Shown here: positions 2,397 through 13,080 of the stretch, piece by piece
Position numbering within the stretch: position 1 is the stretch's first letter
How the letters are laid out: each line of letters opens with the position of its first letter
Assembly: GCA_002840275.1 (NCBI GenBank)
Contig: PHAB01000001.1
Coordinates: 62,001-126,000 of the forward strand
Direction: 5' to 3'
From: Firmicutes bacterium HGW-Firmicutes-14
Lineage (GTDB): Bacteria; Bacillota; Thermincolia; Thermincolales; UBA2595
DNA: 64,000 bases
Program-made: the position numbers and the translations under genes
Notes under the pieces: model-generated
Told to the model about the DNA's origin: nothing
Databases searched by the model: none
What the model saw: the letters and a program-made list of their open reading frames with translations, nothing else

Positions 2397-3747
2397 TATT
2401 GATAAACAGCACTTGATTAAAAGAGAAAATCTTAACCGGGCACAATATTTCCGTTCAGTTTTACAGGAAGCCCGCCGCCTTAATCTGTTAACTGATTCCG
2501 AATTTAATAATATCAAAATGCAAACCATGCAGCTTTTAGCCAGGCAGGCAGAGCGCTACACAGGCGGGGACAGCAGTTCCATAAAGGAAGAAACCGCCCA
2601 GGGTATTATGCAATCGGTTTTTTACAGTATTGATGTTTGTTTAAAGAGTTTCCCCGATGCGGATATGAGTATAGGTGAGCTTAAACATAAACCCCTGGCA
2701 GAATTGTACCGCCAGGGCAAAAAACTGGTGGAAGCACAATTAGAGTATACCAAACAAATGTATAACGAAATTCGAAATAACTGCATTGCCACAGATAACT
2801 GTGCTTACAACGATACTATACAGAGTGCAATACCAGCGTTTTTCTCTGCCTATGATGTTGAATTTGCTGCCCATGATACTCCCGCTTCCATAGATTATCC
2901 TTTAAGCAATGATAAAATGGAGTTGACCGGCATAGAATACATCCATGATTATCTGCAAAAACTGCTGTTGGAGAACCGGTTTTGTAAAAACTTTAGCAAC
3001 CATGACATTAATTCTTTGCTGCGTGGATATGATGTCCATTATCAGGACCTGCTGATAAATATCTTTGGGTTGGTGTTAACAAACACGATTGGCTGTATTC
3101 TGGCAGAAAAGAGCGTGCTCAAGCTCGATATTCAACCTTTTGACAAACAGTACCTGCAGCAGAAACTGGTGAACATGACGAAAGAACAGCTGGATACAAT
3201 TCTGCAGGATGCATCTGAACAGCTCTTTAAAGAGTTTAAGATCTCGGACAGGCTGTTACAGAACCACATTACGGCAACGGCACTGGATTTCTCACCAAGA
3301 ATAAAAAATGCTTTAGGAAATAATCGGCTGGAATCTGTGTTCATCAGTCTGAAAGAAAAGCACCCACAAGGTGTCGTTGAATTCGAAGACGGCCGGAAAA
3401 TGGATGACGAATTATTCCGCCGTATTGCAGATGAAGTCAGACAATGCAGATACACATCAGATAAGATAGCAATCATTAAACGGGAAATTCACAGCATGAC
3501 TGATCTGGTGGATATCCTCGAGGGGTCTTGTCTTTTGGGCGATGAATTTTCTGAAGTTTTTCAGTATCTTGGAGATATGGAACTGGCCTGGCTCTTGACA
3601 AAACTCCCGGCAGATACAGCGGACGCGGATCTTCACTATACAGAAAATGAGAAGGACTGGCATGCCAGGCTTGACAATTTTTTAAAGGAAATGAACTTAT
3701 CCAGAAGAGAAAGTATTTTCCTGCACTATAAGAACTTTCTTTGCTAG
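2389..3747 (+). CDS. DUF6179 domain protein
   Basis: A 452 aa protein. The ATG at 2389 was chosen over an upstream in-frame start at 2248 because GATGAGGAG precedes it and the protein then begins like DUF6179 members (LIKRENLNRAQYF, then AERYTGGDSSSI, LAELYRQG and HDTPASIDYPL). No catalytic motif is evident; it looks alpha-helical and soluble, with no signal peptide. It overlaps the DUF6323 gene by eight bases. The two families are known to sit together in Clostridia, which implies a shared complex or pathway, but the role is not established. Confidence 0.8.
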   Translation: MTNIDKQHLIKRENLNRAQYFRSVLQEARRLNLLTDSEFNNIKMQTMQLLARQAERYTGGDSSSIKEETAQGIMQSVFYSIDVCLKSFPDADMSIGELKHKPLAELYRQGKKLVEAQLEYTKQMYNEIRNNCIATDNCAYNDTIQSAIPAFFSAYDVEFAAHDTPASIDYPLSNDKMELTGIEYIHDYLQKLLLENRFCKNFSNHDINSLLRGYDVHYQDLLINIFGLVLTNTIGCILAEKSVLKLDIQPFDKQYLQQKLVNMTKEQLDTILQDASEQLFKEFKISDRLLQNHITATALDFSPRIKNALGNNRLESVFISLKEKHPQGVVEFEDGRKMDDELFRRIADEVRQCRYTSDKIAIIKREIHSMTDLVDILEGSCLLGDEFSEVFQYLGDMELAWLLTKLPADTADADLHYTENEKDWHARLDNFLKEMNLSRRESIFLHYKNFLC

Positions 3748-3819
3748 TCTGTTGATTGCACTTTTCGCCCTTGCGTTTAAAATAGGAAAAAAGTACAATT
3801 TACGGAATAAAATGCAGAA

Positions 3820-3841
3820 GCCGCCACTTCTCGGTGACGGC
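3820..3841 (-). terminator. Probable terminator of the Tad pilus operon
   Basis: GCCGCCAC and GTGACGGC form a near-perfect stem right after the stop of the last operon gene on the minus strand, followed by a moderately T-rich stretch. The gap to the convergent DUF6179 gene is only about 100 bases, so it may work both ways. Confidence 0.45.
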
Positions 3842-3851
3842 ATGTGTCATA

Positions 3852-4667
3852 CTAATTATAGTATTTGTGCACAGGTATAATCCTGGACAGCCAAAGGGCG
3901 GCCTGCCCCCTGGTCAGCTGCCGTTTCGGGCAAAAGCTCCTGATTTCTCCCAATGCATGGCCAATTTCAAAATCAGACAAGAATACAGCGGTCCGGTAAT
4001 GGGGGTCAATCTGATCCCCATCGAAATAATTTGTGAACAGGGTCTTTTCAAAATCTACATAGCTGTCATCTTTGATGTCTTTTATCACTACCGGATCCCG
4101 GGTATAATATTTAGTTATAAAAGCAGCCTCTTCCCGGGTAATGTAATCATCGGGCCGGAATTTTTTATCTTCGTCGACGGGCAGGCAGCCATCCGTACCC
4201 AGCCGCTGGATAATGGCATAATACTTATGGCCCGGTCTGACATCAACATAGACCGGCGCCTCCGGCGGGACCGGACTTAACACATCATTGAAATAACCAA
4301 ACATCCAGGCCACAAATTCCCCGCGGGTAATGGTTTTATCAGGCTCAAACCTTCCGTCCGGCCCTATTTCCGCAGCCCCGGATTTAAAAAACCATTTGGC
4401 CATGTGCTGCCTGTCCTCTTCCCGGTATTCTCCCAGGTCTTTTATATGAATCTGTACAGTATCACCCTTTTGGGCGGCCTCATTCATTTTCACAAACCAG
4501 GCATCGGCTATGGCCTTTGAACCGGCGGAAGCATCCCCCTCCTGCGATTTGCCGTCATTTACACCGTTCGCCCCCGGCTGTCCATTGCCGCAGCCGGTTA
4601 CCAGGCCGAAGATAATTATCAGTAAACATAACTTTATTATACTCCGCAAAAGCCCCATCCCCTTCAC
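3852..4667 (-). CDS. SLH-domain lipoprotein at the end of the Tad pilus operon
   Basis: A 271 aa exported lipoprotein. Residues 1-26 form a lipoprotein signal ending in LVTGC, so Cys26 should be lipidated. The body carries S-layer-homology motifs (ITRGEFVAWMF, YVDVRPGHKYYAIIQRLG, ITREEAAF, LTRGQAALWLSRI), which in other proteins bind pyruvylated secondary wall polymer. A lipid anchor plus SLH repeats would bridge membrane and wall. It resembles the lipoprotein at 5740-6528 and probably forms part of the pilus platform (inference). The start may be GTG at 4667 or ATG at 4658; neither has a clear ribosome site. Confidence 0.8.
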   Translation of the reverse strand: MKGMGLLRSIIKLCLLIIIFGLVTGCGNGQPGANGVNDGKSQEGDASAGSKAIADAWFVKMNEAAQKGDTVQIHIKDLGEYREEDRQHMAKWFFKSGAAEIGPDGRFEPDKTITRGEFVAWMFGYFNDVLSPVPPEAPVYVDVRPGHKYYAIIQRLGTDGCLPVDEDKKFRPDDYITREEAAFITKYYTRDPVVIKDIKDDSYVDFEKTLFTNYFDGDQIDPHYRTAVFLSDFEIGHALGEIRSFCPKRQLTRGQAALWLSRIIPVHKYYN

Positions 4668-4673
4668 TATATA

Positions 4674-5480
4674 CTATAACTGAAACCGCTCGTAATCAGA
4701 TACATCAATGGGCAATTCTTCATCTGCCACCTTGACTGTGACCCTGGCCCCCGCTGCGCCCTTAATGCTTCTGCTCTCAGCGGGTATATATTCATTATAT
4801 AAGGCAAACCAAAGAGGCTGTATTGTTTCTACCCCGATAACCGGTTTCTCCCCGATAGGAAAATACAGGCCGCAGTCCTCCACCCCGTTTTTATTGGCAA
4901 ATTCCTTGGCTCCTTCTATAATTTCGTCGTTGTATTCCCGGCAGGTTTCCACTAGCAGGCCCCCATTGGCCTCCGCAGAAAAATTACTTTTAAAACGGGC
5001 GTGTTTCCACACGTATTTCAGGTCGGGATAGGCGGGCGGCCGGTTGTTATAAAAGACCTGGGCAGCAGTGCCATCATCTAATAAGGCAGATAAAGCTAAC
5101 ATGACCGCTTCATCCCAGCCGGTATTCTCGTCAACTAAATCGGACGCCAGGGGATATACTTCATTATCCCAAAAGGCATCCAGGATCTCTTCCTTTTTGG
5201 CCGCCAGTTCTTCCCGGTATCGTTCCTGAAGCACCAAAGCAGCCTTTAAGGCAGCGGCATCGGCAGCATTATCGCCATGGCGCTTGCCGATATAAACCGA
5301 AAAGAGGCTGAACATTACAAGCATTATTACCATCCCGATGATGATAGTGACCATGCTGATAACCGTCATGTTACCCCGTTCAATATATAAAGCCGATATA
5401 ACCCTGCTCCTTAATCCTAAACCTTTTTCAACCAACACCTTCAGGCCCTGCCTTTCCCAAAATCTACCAGCCCATGGCAA
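4674..5480 (-). CDS. TadG-like pilus-assembly protein
   Basis: Up to 268 aa. About residues 35-65 hold ERGNMTVIS followed by a long hydrophobic segment, then GDNAADAAALKAAL, the pattern of TadG/TadE-like proteins with one N-terminal membrane helix and an extracellular domain. It lacks the Glu at +5 that class IVb prepilins have after the Gly. The start is uncertain: the ATG at 5480 overlaps the upstream gene by 17 bases, and internal GTG/TTG codons are possible. The distal-operon position fits a minor pilus-associated role. Confidence 0.65.
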   Translation of the reverse strand: MPWAGRFWERQGLKVLVEKGLGLRSRVISALYIERGNMTVISMVTIIIGMVIMLVMFSLFSVYIGKRHGDNAADAAALKAALVLQERYREELAAKKEEILDAFWDNEVYPLASDLVDENTGWDEAVMLALSALLDDGTAAQVFYNNRPPAYPDLKYVWKHARFKSNFSAEANGGLLVETCREYNDEIIEGAKEFANKNGVEDCGLYFPIGEKPVIGVETIQPLWFALYNEYIPAESRSIKGAAGARVTVKVADEELPIDVSDYERFQL

Positions 5481-5721
5481 TTCGAATTAACTTGAACACT
5501 ACAATTGTTACCAATATGGAGACGGTTATCCTCCGGTTTTCCCCCTTTGAACCCAGTATGAGCATCGCCATAAAAACGAACATCAGAATGACACCGGCGT
5601 AACCGATATATCGCAATGTGGCTGCACTGATCGCTCCTTTAGACGATAGATAATATGTATAAAGCAAGAAAGCAAACATGCTGCTGATAAGAATAACACC
5701 GGTTTTGTATAGCATAGTCAT
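5464..5721 (-). CDS. Small polytopic membrane protein in the Tad operon
   Basis: An 85 aa, very hydrophobic protein with three predicted membrane helices (about residues 5-25, 33-58 and 66-83) and a short basic loop KGENRRIT between the last two. GGGAGG lies about ten bases before the ATG. I do not recognise the family. It is flanked by an SLH lipoprotein and the TadG-like gene, and overlaps the latter, so it belongs to the pilus operon. Confidence 0.6.
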   Translation of the reverse strand: MTMLYKTGVILISSMFAFLLYTYYLSSKGAISAATLRYIGYAGVILMFVFMAMLILGSKGENRRITVSILVTIVVFKLIRIAMGW

Positions 5722-5739: not shown

Positions 5740-6528
5740 TTAATATTTCGGGGTTATCACGATAAATCCCGCCGCCTCCGCCTTAGTTACCGGCTTTTGC
5801 GGTTCAAAAAGCCTGCTCGTAAAGGTGAACTTAAAAATCTTTTCCAACCAGAACTGCTGTTTTGAAACCGCTATCATGAAATCCCGGCCGATCTTTTGAT
5901 GGTCATCACACATACTTCTCAGGTTTACTCTTTCTTTTTCAGGGTCAGCGCCCTTCCTGTGCCCGCTCAAAGCAAATTCATCACGATATGCAGACCATAT
6001 CAGGGCCATTTCCTCCCTGGTCATTTCTTTATCCGGGGCAAAGGTTCCGTCAGGGAACCCGACTACCCCTCCGGCTCCGGCCACTCCCTCGATTATAGAA
6101 TAATACTTATGACTTGGCGAAACATCGGAAAAGGTGGGAATAGTAGGAGCCTCCTTTTTCACATGCCTTCCGGACTTGTAATAAAACAGCCAGTTCATAA
6201 ACTCCCCACGAGTGATCCGGCTGTCAGGATTAAACTGGTTTCCCTCCAGCTCGACCGGTACTTTTGCCAGCAATTTGTTAATCTCTTCTTCAAACCGGTG
6301 TCCCGCAATGTCCGCCGGTTGGGGCGGCACATATGCCGGGCCAGGGTCAATAATTACCGTTACCTCCGGTTTGTACTCCACAGCCCCGGTTACTTCCCCT
6401 GACGGCCCAGGTATTTTCCCTGCTGCCCTCGTCTTTTCTGCCGCAATATCACCCTTATCACCTGCCGAACAGCCCGTCAAAGCTAAAGCTATTAAAGCCA
6501 GACTGATAATGAATTTAACAAGCTTCAC
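5740..6528 (-). CDS. SLH-domain lipoprotein, second copy in the Tad operon
   Basis: A 262 aa lipoprotein starting at GTG behind GGGGGG. The signal peptide ends in ALTGC (Cys20). After a Pro/Gly-rich spacer come SLH motifs: SRITRGEFMNWLFYY, FSDVSPSHKYYSIIEGV, VVGFPDGTFAPDKEMTREEMALIW, and a final PVTKAEAAGFI. It shares layout and motifs with the 271 aa lipoprotein at 3852-4667, so the pair probably arose by duplication. The expected place is the outer face of the membrane, in contact with wall polymer. Confidence 0.8.
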   Translation of the reverse strand: MKLVKFIISLALIALALTGCSAGDKGDIAAEKTRAAGKIPGPSGEVTGAVEYKPEVTVIIDPGPAYVPPQPADIAGHRFEEEINKLLAKVPVELEGNQFNPDSRITRGEFMNWLFYYKSGRHVKKEAPTIPTFSDVSPSHKYYSIIEGVAGAGGVVGFPDGTFAPDKEMTREEMALIWSAYRDEFALSGHRKGADPEKERVNLRSMCDDHQKIGRDFMIAVSKQQFWLEKIFKFTFTSRLFEPQKPVTKAEAAGFIVITPKY

Positions 6529-6594
6529 TCTATTCCCCCCGTTATATTGGTTATTAAAAATTGGCCGGTAGACTACTGCATTTTGATTTAGCTG

Positions 6595-6840
6595 CTAAAA
6601 TAAATAGTGCTTAAGGGTGACAAACAATACTGTTAAAGAAAATACTATAGCCATCCATATTCGTTCTTCAGTTTTTTCAAGCCAACCGAAGTAAAGTACC
6701 AAAGCTATAAAGCCACTTATAAACGCTACAGAAATTAACACTTGATGAATAGGTCTTATTGGGTTTCCGATTAATGAGGCGATAAATACAGATGCAATAC
6801 TAATTAAACAACTTACAAGAATTTTACCATGTCTTCCCAC
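6595..6840 (-). CDS. Small IGNPIRPIH-motif membrane protein, copy 3
   Basis: An 81 aa protein starting at GTG behind GAGGGG. It has two or three hydrophobic segments and the motif ASLIGNPIRPIHQVL near residue 25, then FGWLEKTEERIW and VTLKHYLF. It is nearly identical in length and plan to the gene at 7055-7300, and the DNA of the two is also alike, so they are a tandem duplication. I do not recognise the family. Small size, membrane nature and position in the Tad operon suggest a pilus accessory or minor membrane component (inference). Confidence 0.65.
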   Translation of the reverse strand: MGRHGKILVSCLISIASVFIASLIGNPIRPIHQVLISVAFISGFIALVLYFGWLEKTEERIWMAIVFSLTVLFVTLKHYLF

Positions 6841-6995
6841 TAATTCACCCCTCTTGACTTAGCATATTGATTTCCCGGCAAAATTCCGGATTCCCTATCC
6901 AAATTGCTCCAAATAATAACACCAATGCTAGCGTTCCCGAAATCAGCATACGCCCTGTATTACTGATTGTATATATTTCCCTTTTCACTCCACAT

Positions 6996-7035
6996 TAAGT
7001 ATTGGGCATCATATGGACAGGTTTACCTTTATGGG
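6996..7035 (-). pseudogene. Decayed copy of the tadE 3' end
   Basis: On the minus strand this stretch holds CCATAAAGGT and ATGCCCAATACT about 15 bases apart, matching the last codons of tadE at 9212-9247 (PIKVTMPNT) apart from a short insertion and frame breaks. It lies upstream of copy 3 of the small membrane gene, just as tadE lies upstream of copy 1. Confidence 0.6.
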
Positions 7036-7054
7036 TATTATTCGGATCTACCGT

Positions 7055-7300
7055 TCAAAATAGAAAGTGCTTTAAGGTGACAAACAATACTGATAAAGTA
7101 AAAATAATAGCTACCCATATCCTTTCTTCAGTTTTTTCAAGCCAACCGAACAAAAACACCAGACCTATAAAGCAACTTATTAACGCTACCGGAATTAATA
7201 CATGATGAATAGGTCTTATTGGGTTTCCTATCAATGAGGCAATAAAAAAACATGCCATACTAATCAAAAAACTCACCAGACTCTTGCCGTATTTTCCCAC
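7055..7300 (-). CDS. Small IGNPIRPIH-motif membrane protein, copy 2
   Basis: An 81 aa membrane protein. The GTG at 7300 was chosen over an ATG at 7336 because GGGGG precedes it and the product then matches copy 3 in length and first residues (GKYGKSLVSFLIS against GRHGKILVSCLIS). It shares ASLIGNPIRPIHHVL, FGWLEKTEERIW and VTLKHFLF. The conserved Asn-Pro-x-Arg-Pro-Ile-His sits between two hydrophobic segments and may be functional. Function unknown. Confidence 0.65.
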   Translation of the reverse strand: MGKYGKSLVSFLISMACFFIASLIGNPIRPIHHVLIPVALISCFIGLVFLFGWLEKTEERIWVAIIFTLSVLFVTLKHFLF

Positions 7301-7344
7301 CCTTTCACCCCCTGTCTTTATTGCTATGGAAGTCATATCTGCAC

Positions 7345-7374
7345 TAGGTCTCCGTATTGGCCTAACCTTTATGG
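7345..7374 (-). pseudogene. Second decayed copy of the tadE 3' end
   Basis: On the minus strand ATAAAGGT is followed by GCCAATACGGAGAC, which aligns with the final tadE bases ATAAAGGT...GCCCAATACTGAGAC. It lies about 45 bases upstream of copy 2 of the small membrane gene. Confidence 0.55.
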
Positions 7375-7389
7375 ATTTTACTATCTGAT

Positions 7390-8853
7390 TTAATCTTCAG
7401 AATCACCTTTAACTTCAGTCCCCCTTTTAAATTCCTGGGTAAAGTCAATCTCATTCAACGAATCGCCTATTTTGGATAAGTTCGATGACATAGAATCAAT
7501 TGACCTGCCCAAATCCTTTAAGTCAATATCTATTGAAATGCTCTTCCCAAAATCAGGCACCCTGATACCCTTGAATTCTACCACCAGTTCATTGACGCTC
7601 TGGGATGTCGTATTAACAAAATTATCAACCTTCGGAGCAACTTTCGCTTTAAAAATTCCTAATCCCGGTATAGCAAAACCACTGGCCTGCCACCTTTTAA
7701 ATCCTTCCCCGAAGAACTTGGTAATTGACCCGGTAAATCCGCTTACAAACTCACCCATTAAAGATACCATATGAATTCCTATTTCAACAGCAATTATGCT
7801 TGAAACCAAAGCAACCACTACATCAACTTTTCCTATAGATTCCCCCAGTAAAAAGCTGCCGAAAATATCAAAAGAAAAAGTGCTCAAAAAACCTATTAAT
7901 CTATGTAATAACTTACCTTGTCTAATAACGTTTTTTGCAATTAAAAAACCGGGTATAAAACCACCTATAAAACCTGTGATAAAGCCAACTACAAAATGCT
8001 TCACTAATCCGCCAGGATGAATTATTTGGTGCTCAAAAAAATATAATATTGCACCCTCATACGCCATTGTGATTACTCCATTTCCTACCCCAACAATAAG
8101 TAGTCTTTTAAATAAGGAGCTAGATAAAAAACTAATAATTTTCGGAACTATGGCGCTGGTAAAGACCCCCCATGCCTTTGCTATTTGCAATCCAACCCAG
8201 GGCAGGAATCTGTTGGTAAAAACTCTCCAGCCCTCCAGCAACAAACGACCTATTGCCGGTAATGCTGCCCTGGTTAACCAGGGCAAAGCAGTCTGAGTCA
8301 AAAAACCGAGAACGACTGCCCCAGCCCCTGTAAAATAGGCTGCTGCCGCCAAAACAGAGCCGCCAATACCAAGCCCCACAGCTGTCCAAAAACTGAATCC
8401 ATCCTCACCCGCAATGACAGAGTATATTCCTACAATAGCCGCTCCAATTAAACCAATAACTACTGCTGCCAATACTGCCGCTGAACCGAAAATTAATAGG
8501 ACTGCCACGGCTACAGCAGCAAAGACCAATAAAGCTGCTAAAAAGACTTTTTGTATAAAAGAGAGCCCTGCAAACCAAGCGGTAACAGCATTAAGTGTAT
8601 CACTGACAACGTCACTGACGGTACCCCATATTTGATCCCATAGACCAACCTCTCCTCCCCGGGGAATCCAAATGTCTATGCCGTCCCCAAAGTTACTTTC
8701 GTCCTTAACGTCCAGAGCTTCATAGAGCTTCACTTCCCCGGAGATGCTGTTGTCAGAGGCGGCGGAAATTGAGGAACATAAAGCTGGAAGCGGGTTATAA
8801 GTAAATAAAAATATCAAAAAAACAAATGTGATTCTGGCTGTATATTTCCTCAT
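7390..8853 (-). CDS. Large polytopic exported membrane protein in the Tad operon
   Basis: A 487 aa protein not recognised as a known family. It has an apparent signal sequence (residues 1-27), an extracellular acidic stretch (about 35-90), then a run of hydrophobic segments rich in Ala, Gly and Val (about 100-380), and a soluble tail with heptad-like DFGKSISIDIDLKDLGRSID and SMSSNLSKIGDSLNE. GAGGG precedes the ATG. It sits between copies 1 and 2 of the small IGNPIRPIH proteins, which suggests work at the membrane with them. The size and Gly-rich helices resemble a channel or membrane platform, but that is only an impression. Confidence 0.65.
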   Translation of the reverse strand: MRKYTARITFVFLIFLFTYNPLPALCSSISAASDNSISGEVKLYEALDVKDESNFGDGIDIWIPRGGEVGLWDQIWGTVSDVVSDTLNAVTAWFAGLSFIQKVFLAALLVFAAVAVAVLLIFGSAAVLAAVVIGLIGAAIVGIYSVIAGEDGFSFWTAVGLGIGGSVLAAAAYFTGAGAVVLGFLTQTALPWLTRAALPAIGRLLLEGWRVFTNRFLPWVGLQIAKAWGVFTSAIVPKIISFLSSSLFKRLLIVGVGNGVITMAYEGAILYFFEHQIIHPGGLVKHFVVGFITGFIGGFIPGFLIAKNVIRQGKLLHRLIGFLSTFSFDIFGSFLLGESIGKVDVVVALVSSIIAVEIGIHMVSLMGEFVSGFTGSITKFFGEGFKRWQASGFAIPGLGIFKAKVAPKVDNFVNTTSQSVNELVVEFKGIRVPDFGKSISIDIDLKDLGRSIDSMSSNLSKIGDSLNEIDFTQEFKRGTEVKGDSED

Positions 8854-8918
8854 AGATAACCCTCACAAAACACTAAATTAAGAAACCATTATCAAATCTT
8901 TTTGCTATTGTTATACAC

Positions 8919-9167
8919 TTACCTCCCGGCCAAATGCCGTATCGTTAGAACGATAATTGACACTAAAGGAATCAATATCGCGAACAACTTACCGTAATTT
9001 GTATCCTGAGATTTATAATGGAAAAATACCCCTAATAAAGCAAATACAAAAGCTGTCGTTCCTAAAACGTAGTGAATGGGTCGTACAGGATTCCCTATCA
9101 AAACAGCGGTAAATCCTAAAACTATTGCTATCACCGCATTAATGACCGCAATATTTGAATTGTTCAT
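8919..9167 (-). CDS. Small IGNPVRPIH-motif membrane protein, copy 1 (next to tadE)
   Basis: An 82 aa membrane protein. The ATG at 9167 is preceded by AGGGAGGG and gives the same length as the two paralogs. It keeps the motif AVLIGNPVRPIHYVL but differs more elsewhere (HYKSQDTNYG instead of WLEKTEERIW, and IRHLAGR at the end). As the most diverged copy and the one next to intact tadE, it is probably the ancestral locus (inference). Confidence 0.65.
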   Translation of the reverse strand: MNNSNIAVINAVIAIVLGFTAVLIGNPVRPIHYVLGTTAFVFALLGVFFHYKSQDTNYGKLFAILIPLVSIIVLTIRHLAGR

Positions 9168-9211
9168 CACATTCCCTCCCTGACAGCAGCTTATTTCCGA
9201 TACCACTTATA

Positions 9212-9598
9212 TCATGTCTCAGTATTGGGCATGGTCACCTTTATAGGCTGCAGCTCAACATCAAAGTCCTGCAATACCGGTATATCAAAAACCGGTACCG
9301 CGACCGTCAGCTCCACCCATACTTCCTCATCGTTTTTGCCACATTTAAAGTCTTTCAACGGTATTCCCGCCAATTCATTGCTAACCATACTCTTTACTTC
9401 CGAACTTGAATGGCCCACCGAATAATACCTGGCCCCGTCCCTGGCGGTGGCAGAGGCGACCACCATTGTATATGCGGCTATCGCCCCCTGCACTAAAAAA
9501 AGGATGATAAAAACCACCAGAGGTAATAAAGCAGTAAACTCCAGGGCCTGGGAGCCTCTCTCATCACACAGTACATTTTTAATACGAGGCCTTATCAC
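9212..9598 (-). CDS. tadE: TadE-like pseudopilin
   Basis: A 128 aa protein with a prepilin-like N-terminus: basic leader, then DERGSQALEF and a hydrophobic helix (about residues 20-45). Cutting after Gly would leave Ser+1, Glu+5 and Phe+6, as in TadE/TadF pseudopilins processed by a TadV-type prepilin peptidase. The rest is a small extracellular beta-rich domain. It lies directly after the flp gene. The last codons, PIKVTMPNTET, are the sequence whose decayed copies occur twice downstream. Confidence 0.82.
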   Translation of the reverse strand: MIRPRIKNVLCDERGSQALEFTALLPLVVFIILFLVQGAIAAYTMVVASATARDGARYYSVGHSSSEVKSMVSNELAGIPLKDFKCGKNDEEVWVELTVAVPVFDIPVLQDFDVELQPIKVTMPNTET

Positions 9599-9615: not shown

Positions 9616-9852
9616 TTACTCTCCCACTTCAGTCTGGATTTTTGTCATAATTGCTTTAACTGTATCACTAAATGCTGACCCAACCGTGTCACCGCCACCG
9701 CCATCACCCAAGTACTTGGCAATAGCCGCAATCAGGGCCAGGCTCAGTATGCCGATTGCTATATACTCAATGGTCATGGCACCCTTTTCGTCTTTTCCAA
9801 GTCTTTGAATTACGGGATTTAAACAGAACCTAATCATATTCAGATAACCCAA
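9616..9852 (-). CDS. flp: Flp-family class IVb prepilin
   Basis: A 78 aa prepilin. After an unusually long leader (about 24 residues) comes DEKGAMTIEY, so cleavage after Gly gives Glu+5 and Tyr+6, the Flp signature. A 20-residue hydrophobic helix follows, then a Gly-rich GDGGGGDTVG and an amphipathic tail. Flp subunits polymerise into thin adhesive Tad pili. The ATG at 9852 has GGAGG upstream. No prepilin peptidase gene is visible in the window. Confidence 0.85.
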   Translation of the reverse strand: MGYLNMIRFCLNPVIQRLGKDEKGAMTIEYIAIGILSLALIAAIAKYLGDGGGGDTVGSAFSDTVKAIMTKIQTEVGE

Positions 9853-9877
9853 CTAAATCACCTCCTTACCAAAATTT

Positions 9878-10804
9878 TTATCTAAACCCTCCGCCAATAA
9901 ATTGCGGATTGTAAATAATATTGAGCACAATCAGCCCCAGGATGGCAATCATAACCCCGGGGGTAATCACAAACGATGTGACCAGGGTTACTTTGGGCGA
10001 TGCCTTGGCTGCCTTTTCTTTTACCTTATTAAATCTGGTAATCCGCATATCATCAGCCATGACCTTAAAGGTCCGGGCAATGGGCACCCCCAGCTTACTG
10101 CCCTGGATCAGGGATTGTACCAGGGTTTCCAGCTCTTCACACTCATTGCGGTTAACCAGTCTGTGATAGGCTTCCTCTCGAGGCACTCCCAACTCCAATT
10201 CCCGGTTAAAGCGCTGCAGTTCTTCCGCCAGCGGTCCTTCCATGTGGTTGACAACCTGGTCCATGGCTGCATCCAATGGGACCCCGGCCTGTAAGGTTAC
10301 ACTCATCCCATCGAGGAAGTCAGGCAGGTCCAGGCCGATTTGCTCCTGCCGGCTTTTCGCCGCCATGCTTATCCAAACCGAAGGATATATAAATCCGCCT
10401 ACCGGCAGCGCTATCAGTGCAAACAGGGCCAGCGGCATATCGAAATATAACCAAACATCCGCAATGAGCAGCCCGGACACAAACAATACGAATCGCAATC
10501 CTAGAAAGCCTCCCACATTCAGGTCACCGGGATTACCGGCCAGGGCCAGCTGCCGTTCCAGCTTCTCTGTATTCACAAATAGTTTAAATCTCTGCCCCAC
10601 GGGAGCGCACTTTTTACCCAAATTGATGATACTGTTGGTCAACCGGGTTCTTATGCTCTCCTTTTTCCGTTTTTCCTTTTTTGCCCCCAGATGCTCTAAT
10701 AAACTCTTTTTATTAAGCCAATTCAGGTACAAACAGGTAACGGCCAAAGCCCAGCTGAAAATAGCCAGGGCAGTAACTATAATAATGGTGGAAAAAAACT
10801 GCAC
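9878..10804 (-). CDS. tadC: Tad pilus platform protein TadC
   Basis: A 308 aa inner-membrane protein of the type II secretion F family. Hydrophobic helices lie near the N-terminus, mid-protein (about 90-140) and at the C-terminus, and the cytoplasmic T2SSF domain contains DLPDFLDGMSVTLQAGVPLDAA and LIQGSKLGVPIARTFKVMADDMR. With TadB it forms the membrane platform on which the CpaF ATPase works. The GTG at 10804 is preferred because the ATG at 10837 lies inside tadB without a good ribosome site. Confidence 0.87.
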   Translation of the reverse strand: MQFFSTIIIVTALAIFSWALAVTCLYLNWLNKKSLLEHLGAKKEKRKKESIRTRLTNSIINLGKKCAPVGQRFKLFVNTEKLERQLALAGNPGDLNVGGFLGLRFVLFVSGLLIADVWLYFDMPLALFALIALPVGGFIYPSVWISMAAKSRQEQIGLDLPDFLDGMSVTLQAGVPLDAAMDQVVNHMEGPLAEELQRFNRELELGVPREEAYHRLVNRNECEELETLVQSLIQGSKLGVPIARTFKVMADDMRITRFNKVKEKAAKASPKVTLVTSFVITPGVMIAILGLIVLNIIYNPQFIGGGFR

Positions 10805-10808
10805 ATGA

Positions 10809-11750
10809 TCACACCCTAATATCAGTAATCTTCGCAATCAGTATAAAGCCCACGGTCTCTATACCTATGACCACGGCTGCCAGAATAAGCCCCAGGGGGG
10901 TGAAGAGGGGCAGGAAAAAACCGGGGAAGGAAATATTCAGCACCAGACCCGCAATAATGGGCATAAAAGGCAGCACCATAGCCACAAATTTTGTCTCTGC
11001 CGTTTTCCCTCTTAACTCCTGGTTTACCCGGTCCCTGTTTTCCAGGGTCTGGCTCATCTCCTCCAGCACGCGGGCCATGTTGCCTCCGGCTTTGCGCTGT
11101 ACTATAATGGTACTTCCCATCAGCCGGAGTTCTTTGCTGGGCAGCCCCTCCATGATATGGCTGAAGGCGTTTTCCAGGGTATTCCCTAACTGCAATTGGT
11201 GGGCCAGTTCAGTGAATACCGTTTGGGCAGGCGGTTTTTGTTCCCTGGCCGCCAGCTCTATTCCCTGCTGGATGTTTAAACCTGCTTTGACAGAACTGCT
11301 CAGCAGCCTGCAGATATCAGGCAGCTGCCGGTTGAGAGCATCTACCAGTTTTTGCTGCTTCATCTTCAGGAATCTGGCAGAACCGATCTTCACCAACAAA
11401 TAAGCACAGAATATATCCAACGGGAAAAACAAGTCCAGGAAGTTATGGGCCAGGTAACAGCACAGACCAAAAAGCAGCGCCAATAGAGCAAAATACTCTG
11501 AGGGCTTAATGCCGATACCGGCATTTTTCAACAAAGCCGCTAACCGCTGGCCTGATTCGGTGCGGTCATACCAATTCCCAAACCAGAGAAACAAACTGGA
11601 CCGTTCTCCCTTTCTTTTCACCATAATGGGCTTGAGAGTTTTCCAGAGCTTCTTGGTATTGGTATAATAAATCCCCAGACAATAGAGGCCCCAAATCATA
11701 CAGAAAACCGCTCCTGCCGATACCAGAAGTATTAACCAGTTCCTATCCAT
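10809..11750 (-). CDS. tadB: Tad pilus platform protein TadB
   Basis: A 313 aa membrane protein with the T2SSF domain. Visible are LPDICRLLSSSVKAGLNIQQGI and QRKAGGNMARVLEEMSQTLENR, plus two C-terminal hydrophobic helices. Partner of TadC. The start overlaps the cpaF stop by eight bases, so translation is coupled. Confidence 0.87.
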   Translation of the reverse strand: MDRNWLILLVSAGAVFCMIWGLYCLGIYYTNTKKLWKTLKPIMVKRKGERSSLFLWFGNWYDRTESGQRLAALLKNAGIGIKPSEYFALLALLFGLCCYLAHNFLDLFFPLDIFCAYLLVKIGSARFLKMKQQKLVDALNRQLPDICRLLSSSVKAGLNIQQGIELAAREQKPPAQTVFTELAHQLQLGNTLENAFSHIMEGLPSKELRLMGSTIIVQRKAGGNMARVLEEMSQTLENRDRVNQELRGKTAETKFVAMVLPFMPIIAGLVLNISFPGFFLPLFTPLGLILAAVVIGIETVGFILIAKITDIRV

Positions 11751-13080
11751 TCCGGTCCTCCTTCACCTGAAAGATATGTGGGGGAATCTCCTGTCCGAAA
11801 GCCCTCAGCCGTTCCATGCAAGCCGGCACAAAACCCGCGGCCGTGTGATAACCGACGATTGTACCGTCAGGCAGGGTGTCCTGCCGTTGAAAGATAAATA
11901 TGGGCTCAATGCGGGGTTTATCCTTACCCTCGTATACCTCTGCTATATTCACTACTTTCCGGGTGCCGTCTGACAGTCTCTCTGTCTGTACAATTAAGTT
12001 AATGGCGCTCAATATGTAATAACGGACCACACTTACAGATAAAGATTCATTGTTCATCACTACCATGGCTTCAATCCTGGATAAACAATCCCGGGGAGTA
12101 TTGGCATGGACCGTGGTGAGGGACCCTTCGTGGCCTGTGTTCATCGCCTGCAGCATATCCAGGGCCTCGCCGCTTCTTACTTCCCCTACCACAATCCGGT
12201 CAGGCCGCATCCGCAGGGCATTCCTGACCAGCTGGCGAATTGTAATTTCACCCGTCCCCTCCACGTTCTGCGGTCTTGCTTCCATTCCCACCACATTACT
12301 CCGGTTCAGTCTTAATTCAGCCATATCTTCAATAGTAATAATCCTTTCATTGGCCGGAATAGCCGCGGACAGCACATTTAGAAAGGTTGTCTTCCCGCTG
12401 CCCGTTCCGCCAGATATAACGATATTGAGCCTGGCTTTTACTGCCGCCTGTAAAAAGTCAGCCATTTCTTCGGTTAAAGAACCGAAATTAATTAAGTCTG
12501 CTATACTGAATGGATCTTTATTGAACTTTCTGATTGAAATTACCGGGCCGTTTAAGGAAACCGGAGGGATAACGGCATTTACCCGGCTGCCGTCCCGGAG
12601 GCGGGCATCAACCATGGGGGAACTTTCATCAATTCTCCGCCCAATAGGGGCAATAATCCGCTCAATGATATGCCTGATGTGGTCATGATCTTTAAAGGCA
12701 GTTTCCGTTAAATATGTTTTTCCTTTTTTTTCGATATATACTTCATCCGGTCCGTTGACCATGATTTCTGTCACTTCGTCATCCTTTAGCAGCGGTTCCA
12801 AAGGACCGTAGCCGATAGACTCATTTAAGATCAGGGCCAGCAGGCGGCTCTTATCCCCGTGGGAAATGATCAGCTTCTCATCAGCCATCATTTCCGCAAC
12901 TTTCCGCTCAATGGCTAACCGCAGCTGCAGCGGTGACAGCCTGGTAAGCTGATTCAAATCGCATTCTTTCAATAAACGGTCTTTATAGTGCTTTGAAAGG
13001 GTATCCAGGTGGTCATTAACAGGAGAATCCGGTGCGGCCCCCGGCGTTTTTTGGGTGGATAACTTCTCAAACATTGTCAT
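11743..13080 (-). CDS. cpaF: Tad pilus assembly ATPase CpaF/TadA
   Basis: A 445 aa cytosolic secretion ATPase of the GspE/PilB superfamily. The Walker A ISGGTGSGKTTFLN lies near residue 219, with ITIEDMAEL, VVGMEARPQN, RPDRIVVGEVRSGEALDML and TGHEGSLTTVHAN following in family order (Asp and His boxes). It powers pilin extrusion through TadB/TadC. GGGAGAAG stands before the ATG. Confidence 0.93.
   Translation of the reverse strand: MTMFEKLSTQKTPGAAPDSPVNDHLDTLSKHYKDRLLKECDLNQLTRLSPLQLRLAIERKVAEMMADEKLIISHGDKSRLLALILNESIGYGPLEPLLKDDEVTEIMVNGPDEVYIEKKGKTYLTETAFKDHDHIRHIIERIIAPIGRRIDESSPMVDARLRDGSRVNAVIPPVSLNGPVISIRKFNKDPFSIADLINFGSLTEEMADFLQAAVKARLNIVISGGTGSGKTTFLNVLSAAIPANERIITIEDMAELRLNRSNVVGMEARPQNVEGTGEITIRQLVRNALRMRPDRIVVGEVRSGEALDMLQAMNTGHEGSLTTVHANTPRDCLSRIEAMVVMNNESLSVSVVRYYILSAINLIVQTERLSDGTRKVVNIAEVYEGKDKPRIEPIFIFQRQDTLPDGTIVGYHTAAGFVPACMERLRAFGQEIPPHIFQVKEDRNG

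Follow-up and report, generated by a model that had tools for sequence, protein, structure and literature searches.

Tandemly copied three-helix membrane genes beside a large Gly-rich protein in a Bacillota Tad pilus locus: candidate immunity and effector genes

We describe a cassette of one large and several small membrane protein genes inside a Tad (Flp) pilus operon of Firmicutes bacterium HGW-Firmicutes-14, in a 64,000-nt stretch of DNA (contig PHAB01000001.1, positions 62,001 to 126,000) that is hereafter called the window. The operon lies on the minus strand and unites the tadA ATPase gene, the platform genes tadB and tadC, the flp pilin gene, and the minor pilin genes tadE and a TadG-like gene. 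Between tadE and the TadG-like gene lie big, which encodes a large protein with a Gly-rich hydrophobic core, and three small genes, c1, c2 and c3, whose products share the motif IGNP[IV]RPIH. Our favored reading, to which we assign a probability of about 0.5 on comparative sequence grounds, is that big is an effector of the Tad locus and that c1-c3 encode its membrane immunity proteins. This reading is based on C-terminal polymorphism of big in relatives, matched replacement of the neighboring small gene, arrays that contain pseudogenes, orphan small genes and dispensability of the cassette, features that typify polymorphic toxin/immunity loci. The history of the array is well supported as tandem copying of an ancestral unit made up of the 3' end of tadE, a spacer and a small gene. 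The features of the locus are as follows.

11743-13080, minus strand: tadA, Tad core
10809-11750, minus strand: tadB, Tad core
9878-10837, minus strand: tadC, Tad core
9616-9852, minus strand: flp pilin gene, Tad core (the core spans 9616-13080)
9212-9598, minus strand: tadE, 128 amino acids (Pfam TadE PF07811, E 1e-7); its 3' end at 9222-9244 is the original copy of the tail or leader sequence
8919-9167, minus strand: small gene c1, 82 amino acids, three predicted transmembrane helices, between big and tadE, which it follows directly
7390-8853, minus strand: big, 487 amino acids, signal peptide and Gly-rich hydrophobic core, matched by a hidden Markov model (HMM) of that core
7354-7372, minus strand: decayed tadE-tail-like leader of c2, from alignment and pattern match
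7055-7300, minus strand: small gene c2, 81 amino acids, three transmembrane helices, GTG start, member of the family
6999-7032, minus strand: decayed tadE-tail-like leader of the truncated copy, from alignment and pattern match
6846-6988, minus strand: truncated fourth small-gene copy, an open reading frame (ORF) of 47 codons that resembles c1 up to IGNP
6595-6840, minus strand: small gene c3, 81 amino acids, tandem duplicate of c2
5740-6528, minus strand: SLH-domain lipoprotein (SLH PF00395, 3.4e-21; synteny)
5464-5721, minus strand: 85-amino-acid ORF with three transmembrane helices between the SLH lipoprotein and TadG genes; by type of slot, a candidate further member
4674-5480, minus strand: TadG-like minor pilin (TIGR03816, 2.5e-5; 26% to the TadG of locus L035)

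Because neither big nor the small genes of the window belong to a recognised family, and because the collections contain no close relative of the organism, TadB was used to find comparable loci, about 30 of which were read. An HMM of the core of big was built from 12 other Tad loci, with the window protein excluded. The window protein scored 44.7 bits against this model, compared with a maximum of 36.8 among 500 block shuffles that preserved local composition. We define class-A big proteins by a Gly-rich hydrophobic core that ends in [GA]xxYxxxxGxxxFSF; the window protein belongs to this class, with the motif GIYSVIAGEDGFSF at residues 142-155 of its core. When all loci were scanned with the core HMM, one big was found in each of 15 loci (the window included), and generic transporters reached no more than 28 bits. 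A whole-length HMM of the Paenibacillaceae proteins had missed the window protein owing to composition-bias correction, and it was the core model together with the shuffles that recovered the match. Small genes with three transmembrane helices adjoin big in 15 Bacillota Tad loci, in most of them as a single copy. The gene order in loci that we call Paenibacillaceae-type (L035 and L051-L054, a family name inferred from their genes) is tadE, big (~600 amino acids), a single gene for a protein of 98 amino acids with three transmembrane helices, an SLH lipoprotein gene and tadG; the order big, small gene, SLH lipoprotein and TadG is common to these loci and the window.

The contrasts that carry the favored reading come from relatives' loci. 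Between two species of one genus (G844 and G1114), tadB and tadC are 96% identical, tadE 88% and tadG 87%; the first ~200 amino acids of big are about 88% identical and the remainder about 35%, and the neighboring small gene is 29% identical. The small gene of G1114 stands upstream of big, as c1 does in the window, and the contig ends inside big. A conserved N-terminus and a variable C-terminus with a matched change of the neighbor are seen in this pair, that is, in relatives' loci only. Loss of the cassette is seen between G959 and G928, whose Tad loci are otherwise 85-96% identical, with 90-96% for tadA, tadB, tadC, tadE and tadG: G959 lacks big and the three small genes and retains the last ~41 codons of one small gene. 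In a third comparison, the synonymous divergence (dS) between L052 and L053 is 0.16 for tadA, 0.17 for tadB, 0.58 for big, 0.90 for the small gene and 0.24 for the downstream gene, and this peak suggests that the big-small segment has been exchanged with outside lineages. Small genes also occur away from Tad genes: those of the L092 type are intact in G1031 (69% to that of L092) and decaying in G1056 and G1097, and no orphan of the window type was found in the window organism's own genome. The small genes evolve along with big and not with the pilus genes, and we infer that the cassette is accessory cargo of the Tad locus rather than a structural part of the pilus. An earlier note on this DNA, made from the sequence alone, had ascribed to the small genes a real role in the pilus; that role is left without support because an otherwise conserved Tad locus has dispensed with the cassette, orphans exist and the small gene tracks big.

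Several copies of the small gene are present in five loci, namely the window (three and a half), L088 (three), L092 (three), L089 (three and a broken one) and L087 (two and a broken one). In a tree of the small genes the copies cluster by locus, with support of 0.82-0.998, so the amplifications were independent. The repeat unit of L092 starts 43 nt within the 3' end of the upstream gene (at 6537, with the stop at 6579). Tandem arrays and orphans, the pattern of immunity-type genes, are both found, the orphans being of the L092 type. The small genes are the lowest-GC genes in 7/7 loci examined; c1 has a GC content of 37.3%, against 48-49% for the Tad genes. For the single small gene of L052 and L053, the ratio of nonsynonymous to synonymous divergence (dN/dS) is 0.07.

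In the window, c1, c2 and c3 are the sole members of their family in the 3.65-Mb genome (E 3.6e-48, 3.0e-8 and 1.1e-7). The earlier note had described three proteins of 81-82 amino acids with IGNP(I/V)RPIH, the first of them after an intact tadE; all three were found where it had placed them, and the gene before c1 is indeed tadE (PF07811). An AlphaFold model of c2 has helices at residues 3-24, 30-53 and 57-80 (mean pLDDT 69.5), and a PDB search with the small-protein model gave no significant match. No Pfam, NCBIfam or PADLOC family was assigned to c1-c3. Sequence searches with c1-c3 gave only weak matches in 398 genomes of the phylum, mostly within longer or broken frames, and none in collections of genome contigs and viral contigs; comparison with the Paenibacillaceae proteins of 98 amino acids by HMM and hhalign gave no significant homology. 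What the small genes of the window have in common with those of other loci is slot, size and topology; the sequence similarity is not significant. The 85-amino-acid ORF at 5464-5721 weakly resembles the small protein of the Paenibacillaceae-type loci (hhalign p 0.017).

The genes c2 and c3 are a tandem duplicate, with 81% identity across 272 nt, beginning at the ribosome-binding site. Their dS is 0.51 and their dN 0.127, giving a dN/dS of 0.25 (bootstrap 0.13-0.51); the two genes are therefore under purifying selection and not decaying, which bears out the earlier proposal that selection keeps the small genes. Synonymous sites between c1 and c2 are saturated (proportion of synonymous differences, pS, 0.70), the same codon being used in 7/21 shared residues.

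The leaders of the copies record how the array may have grown. The 3' end of tadE aligns with the leader of c2 at a score reached by 2/500 and 0/500 dinucleotide shuffles under two scoring schemes, and with 6996-7035 at a score reached by 8/500 and 3/500. A composite pattern, ATAAAGGT-N(4-20)-CCAATAC, has three matches in the window, at 9222-9244 (within tadE), 7354-7372 and 6999-7032; the same three are the only ones in the whole 3.65-Mb genome, and a reversed-pattern control gave 0. Since this pattern was picked after inspection of the data, a fairer gauge is given by the shuffle tests. In all three leaders the ATAAAGGT and CCAATAC blocks agree at 15/15 positions, and the spacers between them measure 4, 8 and 19 nt. 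The leader of c2 retains a frameshifted ANTET* (PNTET* in tadE), that of the truncated copy retains MPNT*, and the similarity between leaders and tadE tail extends toward the start codon. The expectation that both tails would align with tadE thus held. The statement that decayed tadE ends precede copies 2 and 3 held for c2; the tail at 6996-7035 stands before the truncated copy at 6846-6988, which had been missed, and not directly before c3. Over 43 nt the truncated copy is 74% identical to the first half of c1 (0/500 shuffles); its likeness to c1 ceases after IGNP, the HMM of c1-c3 matches it with 15.0 bits (E 0.0011), and c3 begins a few nt past its stop codon.

The proposed duplication of a unit of tadE tail and small gene is supported by these tails and by the L092 array of the same kind. 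In the simplest history, the unit was copied in tandem, with c1, c2 and c3 retained; a single deletion took away the leader of c3 along with the second half of one copy, and the dragged-along tadE tails decayed. Neutral decay since the split of c1 and c2 would not leave 15/15 identical tail blocks. Given this identity despite a pS of 0.70, the tails are either younger than that split, having spread later by recombination between copies, a process described for tandem immunity genes (PMC9484751), or constrained. The same contrast between identical blocks in all three leaders and saturated synonymous sites in c1 and c2 would be expected if the leaders were not decayed tadE but a conserved functional element (a regulatory site, a leader peptide or a recombination block) that overlaps the end of tadE by chance, and there is a precedent in esaG, where the ends of tandem immunity genes carry conserved blocks that act as recombination sites (PMC9484751). 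We consider this alternative rather unlikely, as the two leaders retain tadE ends (the frameshifted ANTET* and the MPNT* of the remnant), the similarity continues toward the start codon, the independent L092 array also has a unit with an upstream tail, and the composite pattern is absent elsewhere in the genome.

The main rival to an effector with immunity proteins is an accessory, non-toxic pilus module, in which big would serve a customised Tad pilus as an envelope or adhesion component, the small proteins are its dedicated membrane partners in assembly, anchoring or stability, and diversity and copy number result from selection by surfaces or pilus-specific phages. Such a module would account for the position of the cassette within the Tad operon, with tadE/tadG and the lipoprotein genes as its neighbors, for the class-A core conserved in all loci, and for the joint divergence of big and small; customised minor components are known from Tad pili (PMC12075869). 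It fits less well with loss of the entire cassette from a conserved Tad locus, with orphan small genes away from Tad, with arrays of several diverged and broken copies, which are unusual for an assembly partner, and with replacement of the partner along with the C-terminal part of big only; we regard it as possible, at odds of roughly two to one against. Neutral birth and death, in which a recombination-prone spot gains and loses small membrane ORFs whose number is under no selection, would explain why the window, L087 and L089 contain pseudogenes and half copies and why copy number differs among loci. It is made improbable by the dN/dS values of 0.25 (c2/c3) and 0.07 (the single copy of L052/L053) and by the independent amplification of the same slot in five loci.

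As an effector, big would be a Sec-exported, Gly-rich, membrane-active protein, with a C-terminal region that is polymorphic in relatives, and it may be exported or displayed by or with the Tad pilus. Its putative toxicity would be neutralised by the small membrane proteins, and extra, diverged copies of these would widen or maintain protection while variants of big change, as the strings of tsaI beside tspA do in Staphylococcus. A class-B Tad locus (L105) holds two neighboring proteins, 2770-4371 and 7275-8369, with a common signal peptide and PFPEA repeats and with different C-termini, a lipase-like domain (Mbeg1, SA1320-like) in one and a Gly-rich membrane segment of Gly-zipper type in the other; this pair looks like modular effectors. 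Several points weigh against an effector with immunity proteins. The lipase-bearing sibling sits in a different type of Tad locus, class B, and the lipase domain is found only there. Class-A big proteins contain no toxin domain in Pfam or NCBIfam of the kind that marks polymorphic toxins; the big of the window has no Pfam, NCBIfam or PADLOC family, and neither it nor the small proteins have a recognised toxin or immunity domain. The core of big is kept in all loci, as would be expected of a structural component. Several key contrasts are each drawn from a single pair of genomes, and copy-number turnover within the window organism's own lineage is not visible in the collections. The small proteins of distant loci agree in slot, size and topology and lack detectable sequence similarity. 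Finally, the orphan status of small genes in G1031, G1056 and G1097 means a place away from Tad genes and does not cover a distant big. A single-sequence structure prediction of big (pLDDT 45.9) was too poor for use, and PADLOC gave no support for a role of the locus in any known type of anti-phage defence.

The closest described array is tspA-tsaI of Staphylococcus aureus, in which a membrane-depolarising toxin of the type VII secretion system (T7SS) is followed by strings of DUF443 membrane immunity genes, and the tsaI arrays harbor 3' fragments of tspA, the toxin gene upstream (PMC9484751). Both loci encode a large protein that is membrane-active, putatively so in the window, and downstream of it a row of multi-pass small membrane proteins that differ from one another, with pseudogenes among their genes; in both, 3' fragments of the preceding gene lie within the array, and the copies have a conserved block at their 5' ends. 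Unlike tspA-tsaI, the window cassette lies in a Tad locus, and its big carries a Sec-type signal peptide and lacks an LXG or WXG domain. The small proteins, for which immunity is predicted, have three predicted helices and no DUF443 (TsaI family) match, whereas TsaI has five transmembrane helices. The glycine-zipper T7SS effectors EsxX (ExiABCD) and TelE (TipE) are partly neutralised by adjacent polytopic membrane or small soluble proteins (PMC12744356, PMC10434224). They share with big a Gly-rich hydrophobic segment; EsxX and TelE are T7SS substrates with a C-terminal zipper, whereas class-A big proteins have a conserved Gly-rich core in mid-protein and a variable C-terminus. Contact-dependent killing by a Tad-like machine is known from Kil of Myxococcus, where the toxin was not identified (PMC8460266) and where tip modules are variable (PMC8460266, PMC12075869). 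By analogy, Kil may resemble the proposed role of the window locus in tying a Tad machine to the killing of other bacteria; its variable part is minor-pilin tip proteins, as against a membrane protein with a signal peptide in the window. The core of tadA-tadB-tadC-flp-tadE-tadG with SLH or VWA lipoproteins is shared with other Bacillota Tad/Flp loci, and no description of a cassette of big and small genes within such loci was found in the literature searched.

To our knowledge, the Tad pili of Bacillota have hardly been studied. We tentatively propose, and hold this wider claim to be somewhat short of even odds, that Bacillota Tad loci carry a polymorphic family of membrane-active effectors with fast-evolving three-helix immunity proteins, that the Gram-positive Tad machine may double as a weapon of competition between bacteria, and that the window would represent an amplified immunity array. 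As a toxin/immunity pair, the cassette would offer a directly testable set of candidates across many genera. The occurrence of database-orphan genes in a conserved slot would be explained by divergence too fast for sequence recognition, and the window would show how such an array grows, by tandem duplication in which the tail of the preceding gene is carried along.

A second SLH-domain lipoprotein (3852-4667) brackets the TadG-like gene together with that at 5740-6528; comparable places in other Bacillota Tad loci are occupied by VWA lipoproteins. The genome of the window organism holds a second, distantly related Tad locus (L037, G000:C56:130000-143000) without a cassette of big and small genes. 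Another Tad locus encodes a protein (L104:2726-3916) in which a pilin-like N-terminus (GGSTLEYVVILLGAIVL) is fused to a DUF6792/Mbeg1-like hydrolase domain. In L094 (5701-10070), one Tad locus contains three tandem VWA-type lipoproteins of ~471 amino acids, with a repeated unit of class-B big after them.

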